A DNA stretch of 41,428 bases. Source: Candidatus Hydrogenedentota bacterium. GTDB lineage: Bacteria; Hydrogenedentota; Hydrogenedentia; Hydrogenedentales; JAJRTN01. Each line of letters starts with the position of its first letter. Within the stretch, counting starts at the first letter, position 1. Below, piece after piece: positions 14,471-20,460 of the stretch. Location: NCBI GenBank assembly GCA_024278275.1, contig JAJRTN010000036.1:1-41428 (forward strand), written 5' to 3'. A program made the position numbers and the translations under genes. The notes beneath the pieces are model-generated. The model was not told where the DNA came from. It ran no database searches and saw only the letters and a list, made by a program, of their open reading frames with translations.

Positions 14471-15253
14471 CTATCGCACCCGAATATAGGGCCGGAGACT
14501 GGCAATGGTCTTGGCGCCAATCCCCCGTACGCGTGCCAAATCGTCCAGGCTGCTGAAAGGTGCCTCGGAACGGGCGGCCAGGATCCGCCGGGCCAATACC
14601 GGTCCGATACCGGGAAGACGTTCCAGCGTGGCCGCATCGGCGGTGTTGACATTAACCAGGCCCGATGAAACCCCCGCGCGGACATCTCCGCCGCCCTCCA
14701 CGGGAGCGGACGGCGCAGGGGTCCAACCGGAGATCGTGTACTGTCGGGGATTCATCACGGGGGCACGTCCGCCGCCACGGAAACGCGCCCCCGAATCGGC
14801 CGGCTTCGTGGGAATGGTTAAGGTCGTGGCATCCTGAAGATGGGCGCTTATGTTGATATCCGTCATGTCGGCGTCGGCCGTCACGCCACCCGCTTCGCGC
14901 AACAGGTCCTGGACCCGCCGGCCTTCATCCACGTAGTACAGGCCCGGCCGTGCCACAGCGCCTCGCACGGCGACTCCAATACGTTTCGGGGGAGACGGCG
15001 GGGGAAGAGACACGGCCTTCGGCACATGGGGCGCCGCCACTTCCCGAAGGACCCTGGTACTTTGCCCGCCAACGGCGGACGGCTCATGCGGCACGGGCGT
15101 GACCCGCGTGGCAACAGGATCGTCCGTGGCGGGCACAACCGCACCGGAATCCTCTTTCCCGGTCAACAGCAACACTATCGCGCCCAAGATGATGGCCGCC
15201 GGAATCACGGCCAGGATTACCTGTTCCCGTATGGTCAACAGACGACTCAGCAA
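14471..15253 (-). CDS. Membrane-anchored SLBB + helix-hairpin-helix (ComEA-like) protein
   Basis: 260 residues. It starts at TTG 15253, with AGGAGG 12 nt upstream; no ATG lies nearby in frame. One N-terminal membrane span (about 12-31, VILAVIPAAIILGAIVLLL) is followed by a Pro-rich linker (about 35-90) and an SLBB domain (about 91-150, VAVRGAVARPGLYYVDEGRRV). After a second linker comes a tandem helix-hairpin-helix domain (about 198-260, VNVNTADAATLERLPGIGPVLARRI and LARVRGIGAKTIASL). This is the standard ComEA layout: in competent bacteria ComEA binds incoming double-stranded DNA at the outer face of the membrane. No comEC or pilus genes are in the window. It is divergent from the coiled-coil/MshEN gene. 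Confidence 0.88.
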   Translation of the reverse strand: MLSRLLTIREQVILAVIPAAIILGAIVLLLTGKEDSGAVVPATDDPVATRVTPVPHEPSAVGGQSTRVLREVAAPHVPKAVSLPPPSPPKRIGVAVRGAVARPGLYYVDEGRRVQDLLREAGGVTADADMTDINISAHLQDATTLTIPTKPADSGARFRGGGRAPVMNPRQYTISGWTPAPSAPVEGGGDVRAGVSSGLVNVNTADAATLERLPGIGPVLARRILAARSEAPFSSLDDLARVRGIGAKTIASLRPYIRVR

Positions 15254-15419
15254 GGTATCCCAAGTCCTCCTTTGGCACGCGTGAAACCGGCCGACACGTT
15301 CAACGCGGCTATCTTAGCATATTGGTGCCGGCGCCATTGAAGCGCGGACATGGGCCGCCTATAATCATCCGGGCAGGCCACCGGCAGCATGAGACAACGG
15401 TGGTACGGGATGGAGCGGT

Positions 15420-17312
15420 ATGGAGCAGCAGGGATCCGAGCTTTCCACGCGCCTCGCCACCACGGTGGAGGACTGGAAGCATGAAGTGGGTACGGCGCAA
15501 CAGGCGCTCGTCGCCCAATTCGATACGTCCAACCGGCAGTTGGGCCGGTTGCTTCAAGTGCTCACGGCACGCCAGGAGCAGGCCACCGCCCTCGCCGCTG
15601 CCCGCGAGGAACTGGCCCGGCTTCGCGCCACGCAGCCCGCCAACGCGCTTCCGCCCGGCTCGGTTACGGACTACGGCGCTCCCCTTTCCCCGGAAACCGA
15701 GGCCATGGGGCGCGACCTCGCGAAGCTGATGGAGAAACTCGCCGCGACGGTGCGTGCGTGGACCGCCGAAGTTACCCAGGCCCACGTCACGGTCAACGCG
15801 CAAATCCAGCGTATGGGAAACACGCTCGATGCCCTCATGGCCGCCATGGAGCCGCGCGAATCCCATGCGGCCGTGGACCCCCAGTTGACGGAAGCGGTGA
15901 ACTCCCTGCGCGAAGAATTGGCGGCGCTTCGCGATACCGAGGCCCGCCGTGAAACGGAAGCCGGCGCCCTGCGCGCGGAAAATGATGAACTGAAAGAGCG
16001 AATCGCCGTCGCCGAGACCACCTGCCAGGCAGCGGAGGCGCGGGCCGACGAGGCCGATGCGGCTCTCGGCACGGCGACCACGAAGCTCGAAGAGACGGAA
16101 AAGACGGCCCGGGAACTGCAAAAGCAGGTGGATGAGGCCCGGGCGGCCGCGGATGCCGCCGCCGCGGAACGGGACCGCCTTCGTGTCACGCTGCGGGAAC
16201 ATGAGGAGGTGGTCACCACGCTGGAATCGCAAGTTTCAGAGCTGATGCATGCCCGCCGCGCCGTGGATTCCCCCCCTCCTCCGGAAGAACGGACAAACCC
16301 GGAAAAGGATTTCGAGGACCTCCACCTGGAACTTGAAACCATGAAGGCGGAGGCCCGTGTCGCCCAGGATGAAAATGCCCGGCTTGAACTGGAATTGCGG
16401 GAGCTGAAGGCAGCCCTGACGGAGCGTGAGGCCGCGTTGGAAGAAGCCCAAAGCCGCGCGGCCCAATTCGAGGCCCGGGCGGACCATTCGCTGGCCCAGG
16501 CGGAAGCCGCGCGTGAATGCCGCGAGCAACTCAACACCGCCGAATCGTGGATTGAGGAACTCGAACGCCAAGTGGCCGAACTCTCCGGGGCGAAGGAAAC
16601 GCCCACCGCGAACGCCGCCGAAGAAATCGGCCGGCTTGAGGCGGAACTCGCGGAGAAGGAACAACGCATCGCGGCGTTGGAGCGCCGGGTGATCGAGGCC
16701 CAGGGCCGAAATTCAACGTCCCCTGCTACGCTTGATGCCTTCCTGGATTCGCTGGAGGATGTTGAAGCGACGGACACCACCGCCCGGGAGGACGAGGCGG
16801 CGCTCATGGAAACCGTTTTGGCCCTGCTCCCGGAATCCGAAGCGGCAGACCACGCGCCGGGAAGCCCGGAGGGGGACGAAAGCCGCATGCGCCTGGGCCA
16901 AGTCCTTATCGAGGCGGGGGCCATCACGGAGGAAGAACTCCAGGTTGCCTTGCTCGAAAAGCAGCAGCGCCCGGACATCCCGCTGGGCACGCTGCTTCTG
17001 AATCATGGCTACATTTCCGAGGAGGGCCTCGCGGAAGCTCTCGCCAGGCAGCTTGGGCTGGCCATGGCCGATCCCACGAAAGAATCCATCGACCCCGCGG
17101 CCGCGGCCTGTGGCGAGCGCGGTCTCTGCACATGGCATGTGTGCGTGCCCCTCCGTATCGAAGAGGGCAAACTGATCACGGCCATGAGCAATCCCCTGGA
17201 CGAAGAAGCCATGGTGCGCCTCGGTCAACGGGCGGGTATGGAAGTCGTGCCCGTGGTGGCCACCGCAAGCCGGATTCTCACCGCCATCGAGCAGGCCTAC
17301 GGGGTATTCTAA
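15420..17312 (+). CDS. Long coiled-coil protein with C-terminal GspE-N/MshEN domain
   Basis: 630 residues. About 1-470 are Glu/Arg/Ala-rich heptad helices, with two short breaks (about 75-95 and 280-300), and no signal peptide or membrane span, so it is cytoplasmic. About 490-630 form a type II secretion GspE N-terminal (MshEN-like) domain: RLGQVLIEAGAITEEELQVA, then PLGTLLLNHGYISEEGLAEA, then VPLRIEEGKLITAMSNPLD and a final AIEQAYG helix. In MshE-type ATPases the two RLG motifs bind cyclic di-GMP; here the second Arg is Pro and the first motif's last Gln is shifted by one, so binding is uncertain. No ATPase domain follows, which is unusual. It is first in an operon with a 40-aa peptide 2 nt downstream and a polytopic membrane protein. 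Confidence 0.88.
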   Translation: MEQQGSELSTRLATTVEDWKHEVGTAQQALVAQFDTSNRQLGRLLQVLTARQEQATALAAAREELARLRATQPANALPPGSVTDYGAPLSPETEAMGRDLAKLMEKLAATVRAWTAEVTQAHVTVNAQIQRMGNTLDALMAAMEPRESHAAVDPQLTEAVNSLREELAALRDTEARRETEAGALRAENDELKERIAVAETTCQAAEARADEADAALGTATTKLEETEKTARELQKQVDEARAAADAAAAERDRLRVTLREHEEVVTTLESQVSELMHARRAVDSPPPPEERTNPEKDFEDLHLELETMKAEARVAQDENARLELELRELKAALTEREAALEEAQSRAAQFEARADHSLAQAEAARECREQLNTAESWIEELERQVAELSGAKETPTANAAEEIGRLEAELAEKEQRIAALERRVIEAQGRNSTSPATLDAFLDSLEDVEATDTTAREDEAALMETVLALLPESEAADHAPGSPEGDESRMRLGQVLIEAGAITEEELQVALLEKQQRPDIPLGTLLLNHGYISEEGLAEALARQLGLAMADPTKESIDPAAAACGERGLCTWHVCVPLRIEEGKLITAMSNPLDEEAMVRLGQRAGMEVVPVVATASRILTAIEQAYGVF

Positions 17313-17314
17313 CC

Positions 17315-17437
17315 ATGCGCGACGCACTGCAACGGGTCCGTCTCGAACGCCGTCTCGCCCTGGCGATTTTCCTCCTCTTCCTCCTCACCGGCGCCATCAT
17401 TCATCTGGCGGCGACCGGGAACTGGATCCCCCGTTGA
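17315..17437 (+). CDS. 40-residue single-span membrane peptide
   Basis: This open frame starts 2 nt after the stop of the coiled-coil gene and its TGA overlaps the TTG start of the next gene (TTGA). It has a basic N-terminus (RVRLERR), one hydrophobic span of about 20 residues (LALAIFLLFLLTGAIIHLAA) and a short tail, so Arg-rich-side-in insertion is expected. The tight spacing on both sides argues for translation as part of the operon. It resembles septal or secretion micro-proteins in shape only; no family is recognised. Confidence 0.62.
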   Translation: MRDALQRVRLERRLALAIFLLFLLTGAIIHLAATGNWIPR

Positions 17438-19236
17438 TTTCCCGGCCCCACGTCGGCGCGGGGCCGTTGCTCTGCCTGTCCGCCTTCCTGGCACCACTGG
17501 GTTCGTCGGCCTCCGTGCCGATACTCGGTCTGCCCCTGGCGGCTTTTCCGCTGGCCGCCCTGGTTGTTCTGGCCCTGGTGGATTGGCTTCGAGGCATCCG
17601 CCCGAGCATTCCCTTCGACCTGGCCTGGCCGGCCGTGTTGCTCCTCCCCGCCCTTCCCATGGCGCACGGGGCCATGGCGCTCAAGCTGGCCCTGGCCGTC
17701 CCGGTTTTCCTGGCGACGCTGCACTTCGCGGTCACGCGCCCCCTTATCCTTCGCGCCCTGTGGTATTTCTGCTGCGCGTCGGGCATACGGACCATCCTGG
17801 AACTGGCGGCGGTACACACCTCCTTCCTCGACGGAAGCCTCCCCATGGCTTTCGCACCGGAATCGGGTGTGGCGTGCTTTTTCAGCACCAACGGGTCGGC
17901 GGCCTTCACCGAAGCCGCTTTGGCCGTCGCCTTGGTCGTGGCACTGCTTTTTTCGCGCGATCTATCCATCGGAAAACGTCTTTGCCTCGCGTCAACGGCA
18001 GTTCCCCTGGTACTCTGGCTGATCCATGCAATCCCCCCGACGGCCCAAGCCCTGCGGGCCACGGGCATCCCCGCCCTCCCCGGATCGGCCCACCGGTGGA
18101 TACCGGCCCTGCTCCTTCTCTGGATCGTTGCCCGCGTGCTCGCACGGCTCCTGGTCGCCCGCCTGGAGGACAAGCCCGGCATCCACCTTGGCCTGGTGGC
18201 CGTCCTGGCACTGGCCCCGCCCTTGGTCCTCCTGCCCAATCTCCAACTGTCGTTGCCCATGGTGGTTCTTTTCACGCTCCTCGCCGCCTACGCCCGGCCG
18301 CTCCAAACCCAAAACGCTTCTCCCGCCATGAAAAAGCCCCTCGTGGCCGGCGCCGTTGCGGCCGTGGCCACCCTGGCCGCGTTGCATGGCGGCTTCTATG
18401 GAACCTGGACCGCCCCCGCCAACCTCATCCGGGCCGAGGCGCATCTTGCCACCCTCAAGACCGGCGGACCGGCGTGGGCGGTCCGAAACTTCCTTCTTCT
18501 CTCGAAGCACTACAACCCGGCGGCATCCCATTTCTGGAACGCCGAATTAGCGCTGGAACGGGGCGCGCCCCTGCCCGGGGCGGAGGCCTTCGCCCTTTCC
18601 CTCCAGGCCCGTCCGTCCGACAACGCGACAACCCTTTTCGGAGAAGAACGCATCGCCGCCTTCCTGGAGCGGCTCCGCGATGTCTGCTCCGCCGTGCCCA
18701 TGCGAAACCGGGGCGTGGCCTACGAGCGGGCGTTGATCGCCTGCGGCAAACAACCCCTCGCCTTGGCGTCGCTCAAGCTTTTCGCCCGTGCAAAACCCCG
18801 CCCGGCACCGGACGCCCGGCCCCTGGCGAAAGCCCTCGCCATGCTGTTGGGTGACGCCACGGTGGAGAAAGAACTTGTAACCTGGGGCGGGGAAACGCTG
18901 CTCGGTGTGTTCGAGGGACTGGGCGCAACCATCTGGAAGGACACATCCCAGGATTCCACCATCGTACTCACCGCCCTCGCCATGAACAACGGCCTTCTGA
19001 TCCGGGGCGTCTCCGAAGCGGGCCGTTTTGGCGGGTGGCGAAAAGGGGAGGCCCGGAAACGTTACGGGGAAATCACCGGCTGGCGAAACACACCGGCACG
19101 GGCCTCCCTGATAAACGCCCAGGGGGAAAGGGTGGTAACGGTACGCGTCGACAGCGCGCCGGAGGTCCGATTTCTCCAAAAGGAGGATGCATCCTTTCAC
19201 ACCCCCGGCCTGACCCTGACCGTGCGCGTTCCCTGA
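17434..19236 (+). CDS. Polytopic membrane protein with soluble C-terminal half
   Basis: 600 residues starting at TTG 17434, which overlaps the preceding stop. About ten hydrophobic spans lie in residues 1-340 (for example LPLAAFPLAALVVLALV and WIPALLLLWIVARVLARLL). The C-terminal half (about 345-600) is soluble, first helical (RAEAHLATLKTGG, WAVRNFLLLSKHYNPAASHFW, which hints at TPR-like helices), then beta-rich. The layout and the SGVACFFSTNGSAAFTEAAL segment remotely recall O-antigen ligase/polymerase proteins with a TPR tail, but the usual motifs are not clear, so function is left open. Translational coupling to the 40-aa peptide and the MshEN protein suggests one membrane complex. Confidence 0.8.
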   Translation: MISRPHVGAGPLLCLSAFLAPLGSSASVPILGLPLAAFPLAALVVLALVDWLRGIRPSIPFDLAWPAVLLLPALPMAHGAMALKLALAVPVFLATLHFAVTRPLILRALWYFCCASGIRTILELAAVHTSFLDGSLPMAFAPESGVACFFSTNGSAAFTEAALAVALVVALLFSRDLSIGKRLCLASTAVPLVLWLIHAIPPTAQALRATGIPALPGSAHRWIPALLLLWIVARVLARLLVARLEDKPGIHLGLVAVLALAPPLVLLPNLQLSLPMVVLFTLLAAYARPLQTQNASPAMKKPLVAGAVAAVATLAALHGGFYGTWTAPANLIRAEAHLATLKTGGPAWAVRNFLLLSKHYNPAASHFWNAELALERGAPLPGAEAFALSLQARPSDNATTLFGEERIAAFLERLRDVCSAVPMRNRGVAYERALIACGKQPLALASLKLFARAKPRPAPDARPLAKALAMLLGDATVEKELVTWGGETLLGVFEGLGATIWKDTSQDSTIVLTALAMNNGLLIRGVSEAGRFGGWRKGEARKRYGEITGWRNTPARASLINAQGERVVTVRVDSAPEVRFLQKEDASFHTPGLTLTVRVP

Positions 19237-19363
19237 GGTATTTGCGGAACGGGGGTTCTTCTCACCTGTCTCGCAAAAATCATCTATCCCGCAAAGGCAT
19301 CCAGGACACCAGGACATCGACATCTTGAACCACTCCCTGGCGAAGTGTCAGAATACCGCTTTG

Positions 19364-19384
19364 GGGCCGTCGGCCCTGCTTTTC
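19364..19384 (+). terminator. Hairpin with T-tract between the membrane-protein operon and clpP
   Basis: GGGCC-GTC-GGCCC is followed by TGCTTTTC. The stem is short (5 bp) but GC-only. It lies 128 nt after the stop at 19236 and 26 nt before the clpP ATG, so it could end the upstream transcript or act in the clpP leader. Confidence 0.45.
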
Positions 19385-19409
19385 AACACAGCCCATTCGA
19401 GGAACCACC

Positions 19410-20000
19410 ATGCCCCTGTTCAACGCAGAGAAGCAATGTGACCAGGAAGAAGCGAAACAGGATGGTTTTATCGCGAAACTGATGAAATCGCGTACCGTTC
19501 TGGTGACGGGTCCCGTGGAGCAGGACTTGGCGGAAAAGGTGATGGCCCAGCTCCTGGTGCTTGACGCGGAATCCCACGAAACCATCCGTGTGATCATTTC
19601 CTCGCCCGGCGGACACGTGGATTCCGGCTACGCCATTTACGACACCATGAGGTATATAGAGTCCCCCATCATCACCATTGGCGCGGGATGGGTGGCCAGT
19701 ATCGCCGTGCCCATTTTCTTCGGCGGCGACAAGGGGTCCCGCCTGTCCCTGCCCAACACGCGCTTCCTCCTGCACCAGCCCAGCGGCGGTGCCGGCGGCC
19801 AGGCCTCCGACATCCGCATCGAGGCGCAGGAGATCCTCAAGCTCCGCGGGCGTATCAATGAGATGGTGGCCGAGGAAACCGGCCAATCCGTCGAAAAAGT
19901 GGCGCAGGACAGCGACCGTAATTTCTGGATGAATGCCCGGGAAGCCCTGGAATACGGCCTCGTGGACAAGATCATCACTTCCGTGAAAGAGGTCAAATAG
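19410..20000 (+). CDS. clpP: ATP-dependent Clp protease proteolytic subunit with Ser-His-Asn triad
   Basis: 196 residues, normal for ClpP. The Ser97 loop reads GAGWVASIAV instead of the common GQAASMGA; His122 is in LLHQPSGG, 25 residues on, exactly as in E. coli. The triad Asp position, 49 residues after the histidine, is Asn171 in DSDRNFWM (E. coli DTERDRFL). Listeria ClpP1 has the same Asp-to-Asn change and depends on a partner ClpP for full activity. ISSPGGHVDSG, the handle-helix residues (ILKLRGRINEM) and EALEYGLVDKI are all present. It degrades unfolded or tagged proteins in the cytosol with ClpX/ClpA-type unfoldases; none lies next to it. GAGGA precedes the ATG. A second clpP elsewhere in the genome is expected but not visible here. 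Confidence 0.93.
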   Translation: MPLFNAEKQCDQEEAKQDGFIAKLMKSRTVLVTGPVEQDLAEKVMAQLLVLDAESHETIRVIISSPGGHVDSGYAIYDTMRYIESPIITIGAGWVASIAVPIFFGGDKGSRLSLPNTRFLLHQPSGGAGGQASDIRIEAQEILKLRGRINEMVAEETGQSVEKVAQDSDRNFWMNAREALEYGLVDKIITSVKEVK

Positions 20001-20065
20001 GCGCGTCACGGGAGACGAATGGCCGGACAACGCCAAACCTTTCCATGAACGTAAAAACGGCGATT

Positions 20066-20197
20066 AAATCGCAGGATTGGTCGTAAGTCACTGTGGATTT
20101 CAACAGCCGCGCCATGGAGAACAGTCGATATACGTCAATGCTGCATGGCGAAAAAAATGAGTAGAATCCTCCGCGATAAGGGCGCAACGGCCCTTTT
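20066..20197 (+). repeat. Dispersed repeat F, two-block copy
   Basis: The first block (20066-20090, AAATCGCAGGATTGG then TCGTAAGTCA) matches 26987-27011 at 24 of 25 positions. The second block (20161-20197, GTAGAATCCTCCGCGATAAG then GGCGCAACGGCCCTTTT) matches 27036-27072 and the reverse copy at 12547-12582. The spacing between blocks differs (70 versus 24 nt). Confidence 0.82.
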
Positions 20198-20247
20198 CAG
20201 GTTCAGCCACGAAATACACAAAATACACGAAATGAGAAGCTTCGCTT

Positions 20248-20265
20248 GGTGGGCCCTGGCCCACC
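20248..20265. repeat. GGTGGGCC-NN-GGCCCACC palindrome
   Basis: One of five copies in the window: 331-348 (one mismatch), 12837-12854, 20248-20265, 40955-40972 and 41021-41038 (one mismatch). The arms are constant while the two loop bases vary (TT, AA, CT). All copies are intergenic. Confidence 0.8.
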
Positions 20266-20297
20266 CTACCCACCACGCTCTGCATGGGAACGAGAGA

Positions 20298-20460
20298 ATC
20301 TGCGTTCATCTGCGCAATCTGCGGATACATGATCATGGAGCCCCGCCTTCGCGGGAAAACGTAGAAGCGGCTTCCAGCCGCTTTTGAAGAGGCTGGAAGC
20401 CTCTTCTACGTTGCTTCGGAACCACGATTCTCCGTGGAGATGATTCCCGGCCACGCCGGG
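20298..20460 (+). repeat. Compound repeat: block C, A1 palindrome, A2 block
   Basis: Block C (20298-20347) contains ATCTGCG repeated three times with variations, followed by GATACATGATCATGGAGCC; it matches 41071-41120 almost base for base. A1 (20361-20409) and A2 (20417-20460) match 4010-4057 and 4065-4113 in the same order and orientation. Confidence 0.82.

Follow-up and report, generated by a model that had tools for sequence, protein, structure and literature searches.

The MshEN domain is common to the GspE/PilB/MshE ATPases and to a group of receptors that use it as a cyclic di-GMP (c-di-GMP) input without a GspE-type ATPase, namely NfrB, EpsG-type kinases, FrgA, response regulators and Ser/Thr kinase fusions (PMC5013675, PMC8669469). 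It has been found fused to receiver, HD-GYP, CheA, CheX, cyclase, kinase and glycosyltransferase domains (Wang et al. 2016, PMC5013675). In NfrB of Escherichia coli the MshEN domain is C-terminal and binds c-di-GMP, and NfrB controls an exopolysaccharide synthase with a TPR (tetratricopeptide repeat)-rich partner (PMC8669469). A separate superfamily comprises the O-antigen ligase WaaL, the Wzy polymerase and PglL (PF04932); in Wzy–Wzz copolymerase complexes a Wzy-type membrane protein is regulated by a membrane partner (PMC10030265). Here we analyse a locus in which relatives of both groups lie side by side: three genes at positions 15,420–19,236 of a 41,428-nucleotide contig from a Candidatus Hydrogenedentota bacterium (JAJRTN010000036.1, assembly GCA_024278275.1), the whole of which we call the window. 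They encode a coiled-coil protein that ends in MshEN (coil-MshEN), a single-span peptide and a polytopic membrane protein. We propose, with a probability of roughly 45%, that the locus combines two modules, an envelope-glycan membrane pair and a c-di-GMP-reading scaffold, which adjoined each other in an ancestor of Candidatus Hydrogenedentota and may be coupled in some lineages.

The window is contig C190 of a 5.35 Mb genome that is 96% complete (G000). Our comparisons used 68 genomes from the phylum, G000 among them, all within one order; most of these are fragmented, so that some scored absences may be false. All three genes were also picked by an independent codon-usage gene caller, and homologues of all three are kept in relatives, which places these features well beyond chance.

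The best-supported functional link at the locus is between the peptide and the polytopic gene, which on sequence evidence appear to form a conserved functional unit. The peptide (40 amino acids (aa), 17315–17437, forward strand) begins 2 nt past the stop codon of the coil-MshEN gene. The polytopic protein (600 aa, 17434–19236, forward strand) begins with a TTG start codon that gives a 4-nt overlap with the peptide stop, and 4-nt stop/start overlaps of these two genes recur in relatives. The polytopic family is present in 39 of the 68 genomes (counted at E < 1e-30) and its matches are restricted to the phylum among the 195 genomes of the relatives set that was searched. Small open reading frames of like pattern precede the polytopic gene in many of these relatives. 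The pattern is an invariant R-x-x-x-E-R followed by a single membrane span; R7, E11 and R12 are invariant across 15 aligned copies, and the window peptide, which is predicted to be N-in, has a cytoplasmic R-x-x-x-E-R-R tail. For the peptide we relied on this deep conservation across families in place of a count of synonymous and non-synonymous changes, for which the two close pairs available are too small a sample.

A profile built from 20 such small reading frames recovered the peptide at 10 of 13 held-out polytopic loci (E <= 2e-4; two of the 10 are close relatives of profile members). It had no match downstream of coil genes that lack a polytopic neighbour. Searched against whole genomes, the profile found the peptide in 31 of the 68, and in all 31 the best match immediately precedes the polytopic gene, on the same strand and no more than ∼150 nt away from match to match. 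The peptide was not found in any of the 68 genomes without a polytopic gene. We also noted a marginal extra match in the window genome (G000:C18:54100-54201, E 0.006), away from any polytopic gene. To our knowledge, no WaaL or Wzy has a small single-span partner peptide. Wzz differs in being much larger and in having a periplasmic domain; the peptides of this family are about 40–85 aa long and combine a single span with a charged tail in the cytoplasm.

What kind of protein does the peptide accompany? Neither the peptide nor the polytopic protein of the window matches Pfam, NCBIfam or PADLOC. Among 21 polytopic family members searched against Pfam only weak TPR matches recur, and a sequence search of the PDB likewise returned weak TPR matches only. 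The predicted layout is a membrane domain of about 11 spans with a WaaL fold (residues 9–322), TPR-like helices (328–495) and a C-terminal beta region (511–580). Loop charges, which follow the positive-inside pattern, predict an N-in protein with 11 spans and a periplasmic TPR and beta region. With filters disabled, we searched the family profile (A1) against every protein called in the retrieved regions. Beyond its own members it matched three proteins (E 5e-11, 8e-10 and 2.5e-5), each with Wzy_C, confirmed by Pfam, and TPR. These matches span membrane spans 1–7, and in one case the TPR too; no other polytopic protein was significant among those tested. When the family was compared by hhalign with 7 Wzy proteins from the window genome and with 27 control membrane proteins, the result was suggestive only. 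The three matched proteins (L143:240-2450, L146:381-2612 and L145:1598-2911) come from the same phylum and appear to represent a catalytic type related to the polytopic family.

The fold points in the same direction. We modelled the membrane domain of a homologue (G051) with AlphaFold using 30 sequences (pLDDT 86, pTM 0.88). The top Foldseek match in the PDB was the O-antigen ligase WaaL (7tpg_B, probability 1.00, TM-scores 0.55/0.45), and the other listed matches had TM-scores of 0.24 or below. Two independent lines, sequence and predicted fold, thus place the membrane domain in the O-antigen-ligase (WaaL/Wzy) superfamily.

The first gene (15420–17312, forward strand) encodes a 630-aa protein that is predicted to be soluble, with no membrane span. 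Residues 1–480 have a 3.5-residue hydrophobic periodicity with a power of 0.77, against 0.16 ± 0.045 in shuffled sequence, a heptad signal 13 standard deviations over the shuffles. Near the N-terminus a W-x-x-E-V helical motif appears twice, and orthologues retain it. The C-terminal MshEN subdomain (residues 545–628, 17052–17303, forward strand) matches Pfam PF05157 (E 3.2e-15, 56.3 bits against a cut-off of 23.1). Residues 491–544 match NCBIfam NF053729, the c-di-GMP motif of MshE-related proteins (E 1.7e-14, 53.4 bits against a cut-off of 38). No GspE/PilB-type (T2SSE) ATPase domain was found in the protein, which ends two residues past the MshEN match; from the ATPases it differs by this absence and by the C-terminal position of MshEN. 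The NfrB model matches the MshEN part alone (residues 487–627), and its GT2 domain is not matched. We rejected the idea that gene 1 is a fragment of an ATPase gene, as the reading frame is complete and orthologues share the architecture, and we dismissed its PADLOC matches as coiled-coil noise. The first-pass annotation, made from the window alone, had put the three genes at these positions and described gene 1 as a coiled coil with a complete C-terminal GspE-N/MshEN domain and no ATPase; reading of the frames and both profile databases bear this out.

That annotation had also treated an MshEN domain outside an ATPase as unusual, and here we disagree. Many such fusions are described by Wang et al. 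(PMC5013675), and of the 17 MshEN proteins in the window genome 7 have an ATPase and 10 lack one. Three of the 10 are coiled coils with a C-terminal MshEN (in the window and on contigs C51 and C1), an architecture that recurs in the phylum. The remainder comprise three HDOD-like fusions and one each of Ser/Thr-kinase-like, cyclic-nucleotide-binding-like, DnaA-like and spermidine-synthase-like membrane proteins; these labels were read from sequence, and Pfam was run on the coil proteins only. The DnaA-like protein (L008, G000:C193:40105-43365) has an N-terminal MshEN and a C-terminal part that reads as a DnaA-type AAA+ ATPase, a possible c-di-GMP input. The kinase-like protein (L012, G000:C197:35698-38922) carries MshEN at its C-terminus, and a partial MshEN lies within the polytopic spermidine-synthase-like protein (L015, G000:C88:60209-63427). 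Compared with known non-ATPase MshEN receptors, the protein of the window has a long coiled coil and no enzymatic domain as its partner region; its strict motif is incomplete, and binding is a prediction.

The strict c-di-GMP motif consists of two 24-residue repeats, (R/K/L)LGxx..G..L...L..Q, with a 5-residue spacer, and perfect conservation may not be needed for binding (PMC5013675; an extended consensus is available in PMC11731258). The gene 1 product does not have this strict pair. Its motif I (residues 491–514, 16890–16961, forward strand; RLGQVLIEAGAITEEELQVALLEK) fits the relaxed motif of PMC5013675 and departs from the strict one at positions 11 (A) and 24 (K for Q). Motif II (residues 521–544, 16980–17051, forward strand; PLGTLLLNHGYISEEGLAEALARQ) also fits the relaxed motif, with P for R/K/L at position 1 and Y at position 11. 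The LG pair is intact in both motifs, and the spacer is 6 rather than 5. In orthologues the final Gln of motif I is mostly kept; in most of them motif II has lost its central Gly and has Ile/Val in place of Leu. With 10 GGDEF and 8 PilZ matches in the window genome, c-di-GMP signalling is likely to be present there. Binding by this MshEN domain is plausible, though not assured.

We can now set out how the two modules might work. Module 1 is a translationally coupled pair, a small N-in peptide and an 11-span WaaL/Wzy-fold protein with a predicted periplasmic TPR and without Wzy_C. It may act in the handling of envelope glycans, where it would bind or process a lipid-linked glycan or the ligase/polymerase partners of that glycan. 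The TPR domain would dock periplasmic partners, and the peptide would be an obligate small subunit of the polytopic protein. Module 2 is a cytoplasmic coiled-coil scaffold that ends in MshEN; it would bind c-di-GMP and thereby change its assembly or docking. The weakest step is the last: where the two modules adjoin, the scaffold may modulate the membrane unit from the cytoplasmic side, perhaps by way of the peptide's arginine-rich tail and cytoplasmic loops of the polytopic protein, so that c-di-GMP would tune an envelope-glycan process. Within an uncultured phylum, the O-antigen-ligase superfamily appears to gain a strictly paired small membrane protein, along with a member that lacks the catalytic segment. 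Should coil-MshEN act on the pair, a ligase-fold protein would receive c-di-GMP input, by a route that differs from NfrB and from the control of synthases by PilZ.

Several results weigh against this reading. The Foldseek E-value for WaaL is just 0.09, and the support comes from the probability, the gap in TM-scores and the link by sequence, which is independent. The model of good quality comes from a homologue whose membrane domain shares 26% identity with that of the window protein; the full-length model of the window protein is poorer (pLDDT 75), and Foldseek found nothing significant for it in the PDB or a viral set. The MshEN motif is imperfect and its second half is more degenerate in most orthologues, and c-di-GMP binding may therefore be weak or lost. 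Finally, scaffold and pair co-occur no more than expected. True gene 1 orthologues (179–240 bits; next best 148) occur in 13 of the 68 genomes, the window protein included, in families f1, f2, f3, f8, f9 and f11; named records that hold them carry the label Candidatus Hydrogenedentota or Hydrogenedentes. Both modules are found together in 5 genomes, where independence would give ∼7.5. The scaffold is absent from 34 of the 39 pair genomes and the pair from 8 of the 13 scaffold genomes, so that neither module needs the other.

These distributions are what we would expect if coil-MshEN and the membrane pair had unrelated jobs and their adjacency were inherited synteny. The scaffold would then be one of several in this phylum that read c-di-GMP, acting for example on type IV pilus/secretion ATPases or on other cytoplasmic targets. 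The two further coil-MshEN proteins of the window genome (L156:5462-6931 on C51 and L157:5781-6974 on C1) are indeed encoded amid unrelated genes, with no membrane pair, and in most genomes other genes precede the pair, for instance ones that read as peptidase-like, PabB-like or PAS/receiver-type. Conservation of gene order speaks against mere synteny. Of the five genomes with both modules, four show scaffold and pair next to each other and in the same order; the fifth (G026) is limited by contig ends. The order coil, peptide, polytopic protein, ClpP paralog (see below) is kept in G000, G002, G010 and G014, which represent three families (f1, f3 and f11), and this much of the earlier proposal, that the gene order recurs in relatives, stands. 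Three genomes that lack the polytopic gene altogether (G037, G015 and G007) have the coil gene immediately next to that same ClpP paralog. Together these arrangements suggest an ancestral four-gene block, and later loss of either part accounts for the distribution where an obligate complex does not. We regard unrelated jobs as a serious contender, if somewhat doubtful.

A different question is whether the polytopic protein has kept enzymatic activity, as a glycosyl-ligase, polymerase or protein O-glycosyltransferase, by means of other catalytic residues; the peptide would then be the small subunit of the enzyme. The WaaL fold would suit such a role, and the membrane domain retains conserved residues, a nearly invariant Arg in span 8 among them. 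By contrast with WaaL and Wzy, and despite sharing N-terminal sequence similarity and a TPR tail with the Wzy_C + TPR proteins of its phylum, the family is without the Wzy_C segment that bears the ligase catalytic residues. The catalytic R215, R288 and H338 of E. coli WaaL fall in the Wzy_C region (PMC3643930), and Pfam leaves Wzy_C (PF04932) unmatched in all 21 members. A segment of the Wzy–TPR relatives, SRSS ... GTG ... TLHSVPxKLLLETG, which contributes a loop Arg and His, has no counterpart in the family, and their long periplasmic loop is absent from it. We therefore think an active enzyme unlikely. A bolder extension of the two-module reading is that this WaaL-fold protein without its catalytic segment, together with its obligate 40-aa single-span partner, is a new kind of device for envelope glycans. 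It would sense or gate lipid-linked glycan without being an enzyme, would provide a TPR platform in the periplasm, and in some lineages would be switched cytoplasmically by a c-di-GMP-binding coiled coil. We offer this as speculation and think it unlikely.

The first-pass annotation had gone further than our two-module reading and proposed a dedicated c-di-GMP-controlled device of three proteins, with the MshEN scaffold as sensor subunit of an obligate complex. The spacing of the genes, 2 nt and then a 4-nt overlap, is operon-like, and the order is kept in three families. A single candidate sigma-70-type promoter (TTGAAG-17 nt-TATAAT, 15337–15365, forward strand) lies 55 nt ahead of gene 1; between the genes we saw no convincing terminator. 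The promoter is a consensus match only (10 of 12 positions), the sole one in 15,200–20,400, where shuffled sequence gives an expected 0.7. The separate distributions of scaffold and pair tell against an obligate complex, which we consider very unlikely. What remains of the earlier reading is a true C-terminal MshEN without an ATPase in a recurring gene order; the idea of a single three-gene system is not supported, although modulation of the pair by the coil protein may yet prove right for some lineages.

Two of our observations go beyond that annotation: the O-antigen-ligase fold predicted for the polytopic protein, and a ClpP paralog as a frequent fourth member of the locus. This second ClpP paralog (19410–20000, forward strand), a frequent conserved downstream neighbour, is encoded in addition to a canonical ClpP on contig C186 of the same genome. 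Nearly all copies have Asn in the motif SDRNFWM at what we take, from E. coli ClpP, to be the position of the active-site Asp. The paralog also carries a Trp in GAGWVASI. It is found in most of the 68 genomes and adjoins the polytopic gene in 15. That the scaffold serves this paralog in c-di-GMP-dependent proteolysis, with the membrane pair incidental, is highly improbable: the three pair-less genomes with coil and ClpP side by side would fit, as would the near universality of the paralog in the phylum, but the paralog adjoins the pair without a scaffold beside it in 11 genomes, many genomes have it and neither module, and the coil protein showed no adaptor-like feature.

On its other side, gene 1 faces a gene on the reverse strand (14471–15253) that encodes a ComEA-like SLBB/helix-hairpin-helix protein, as had been annotated. 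It is no conserved part of the locus, being found nearby in one other genome only (G007). There, in another family, a homologue with 37% identity (L074:4260-5219, contig C317) lies ∼3 kb downstream of coil-MshEN and ClpP.

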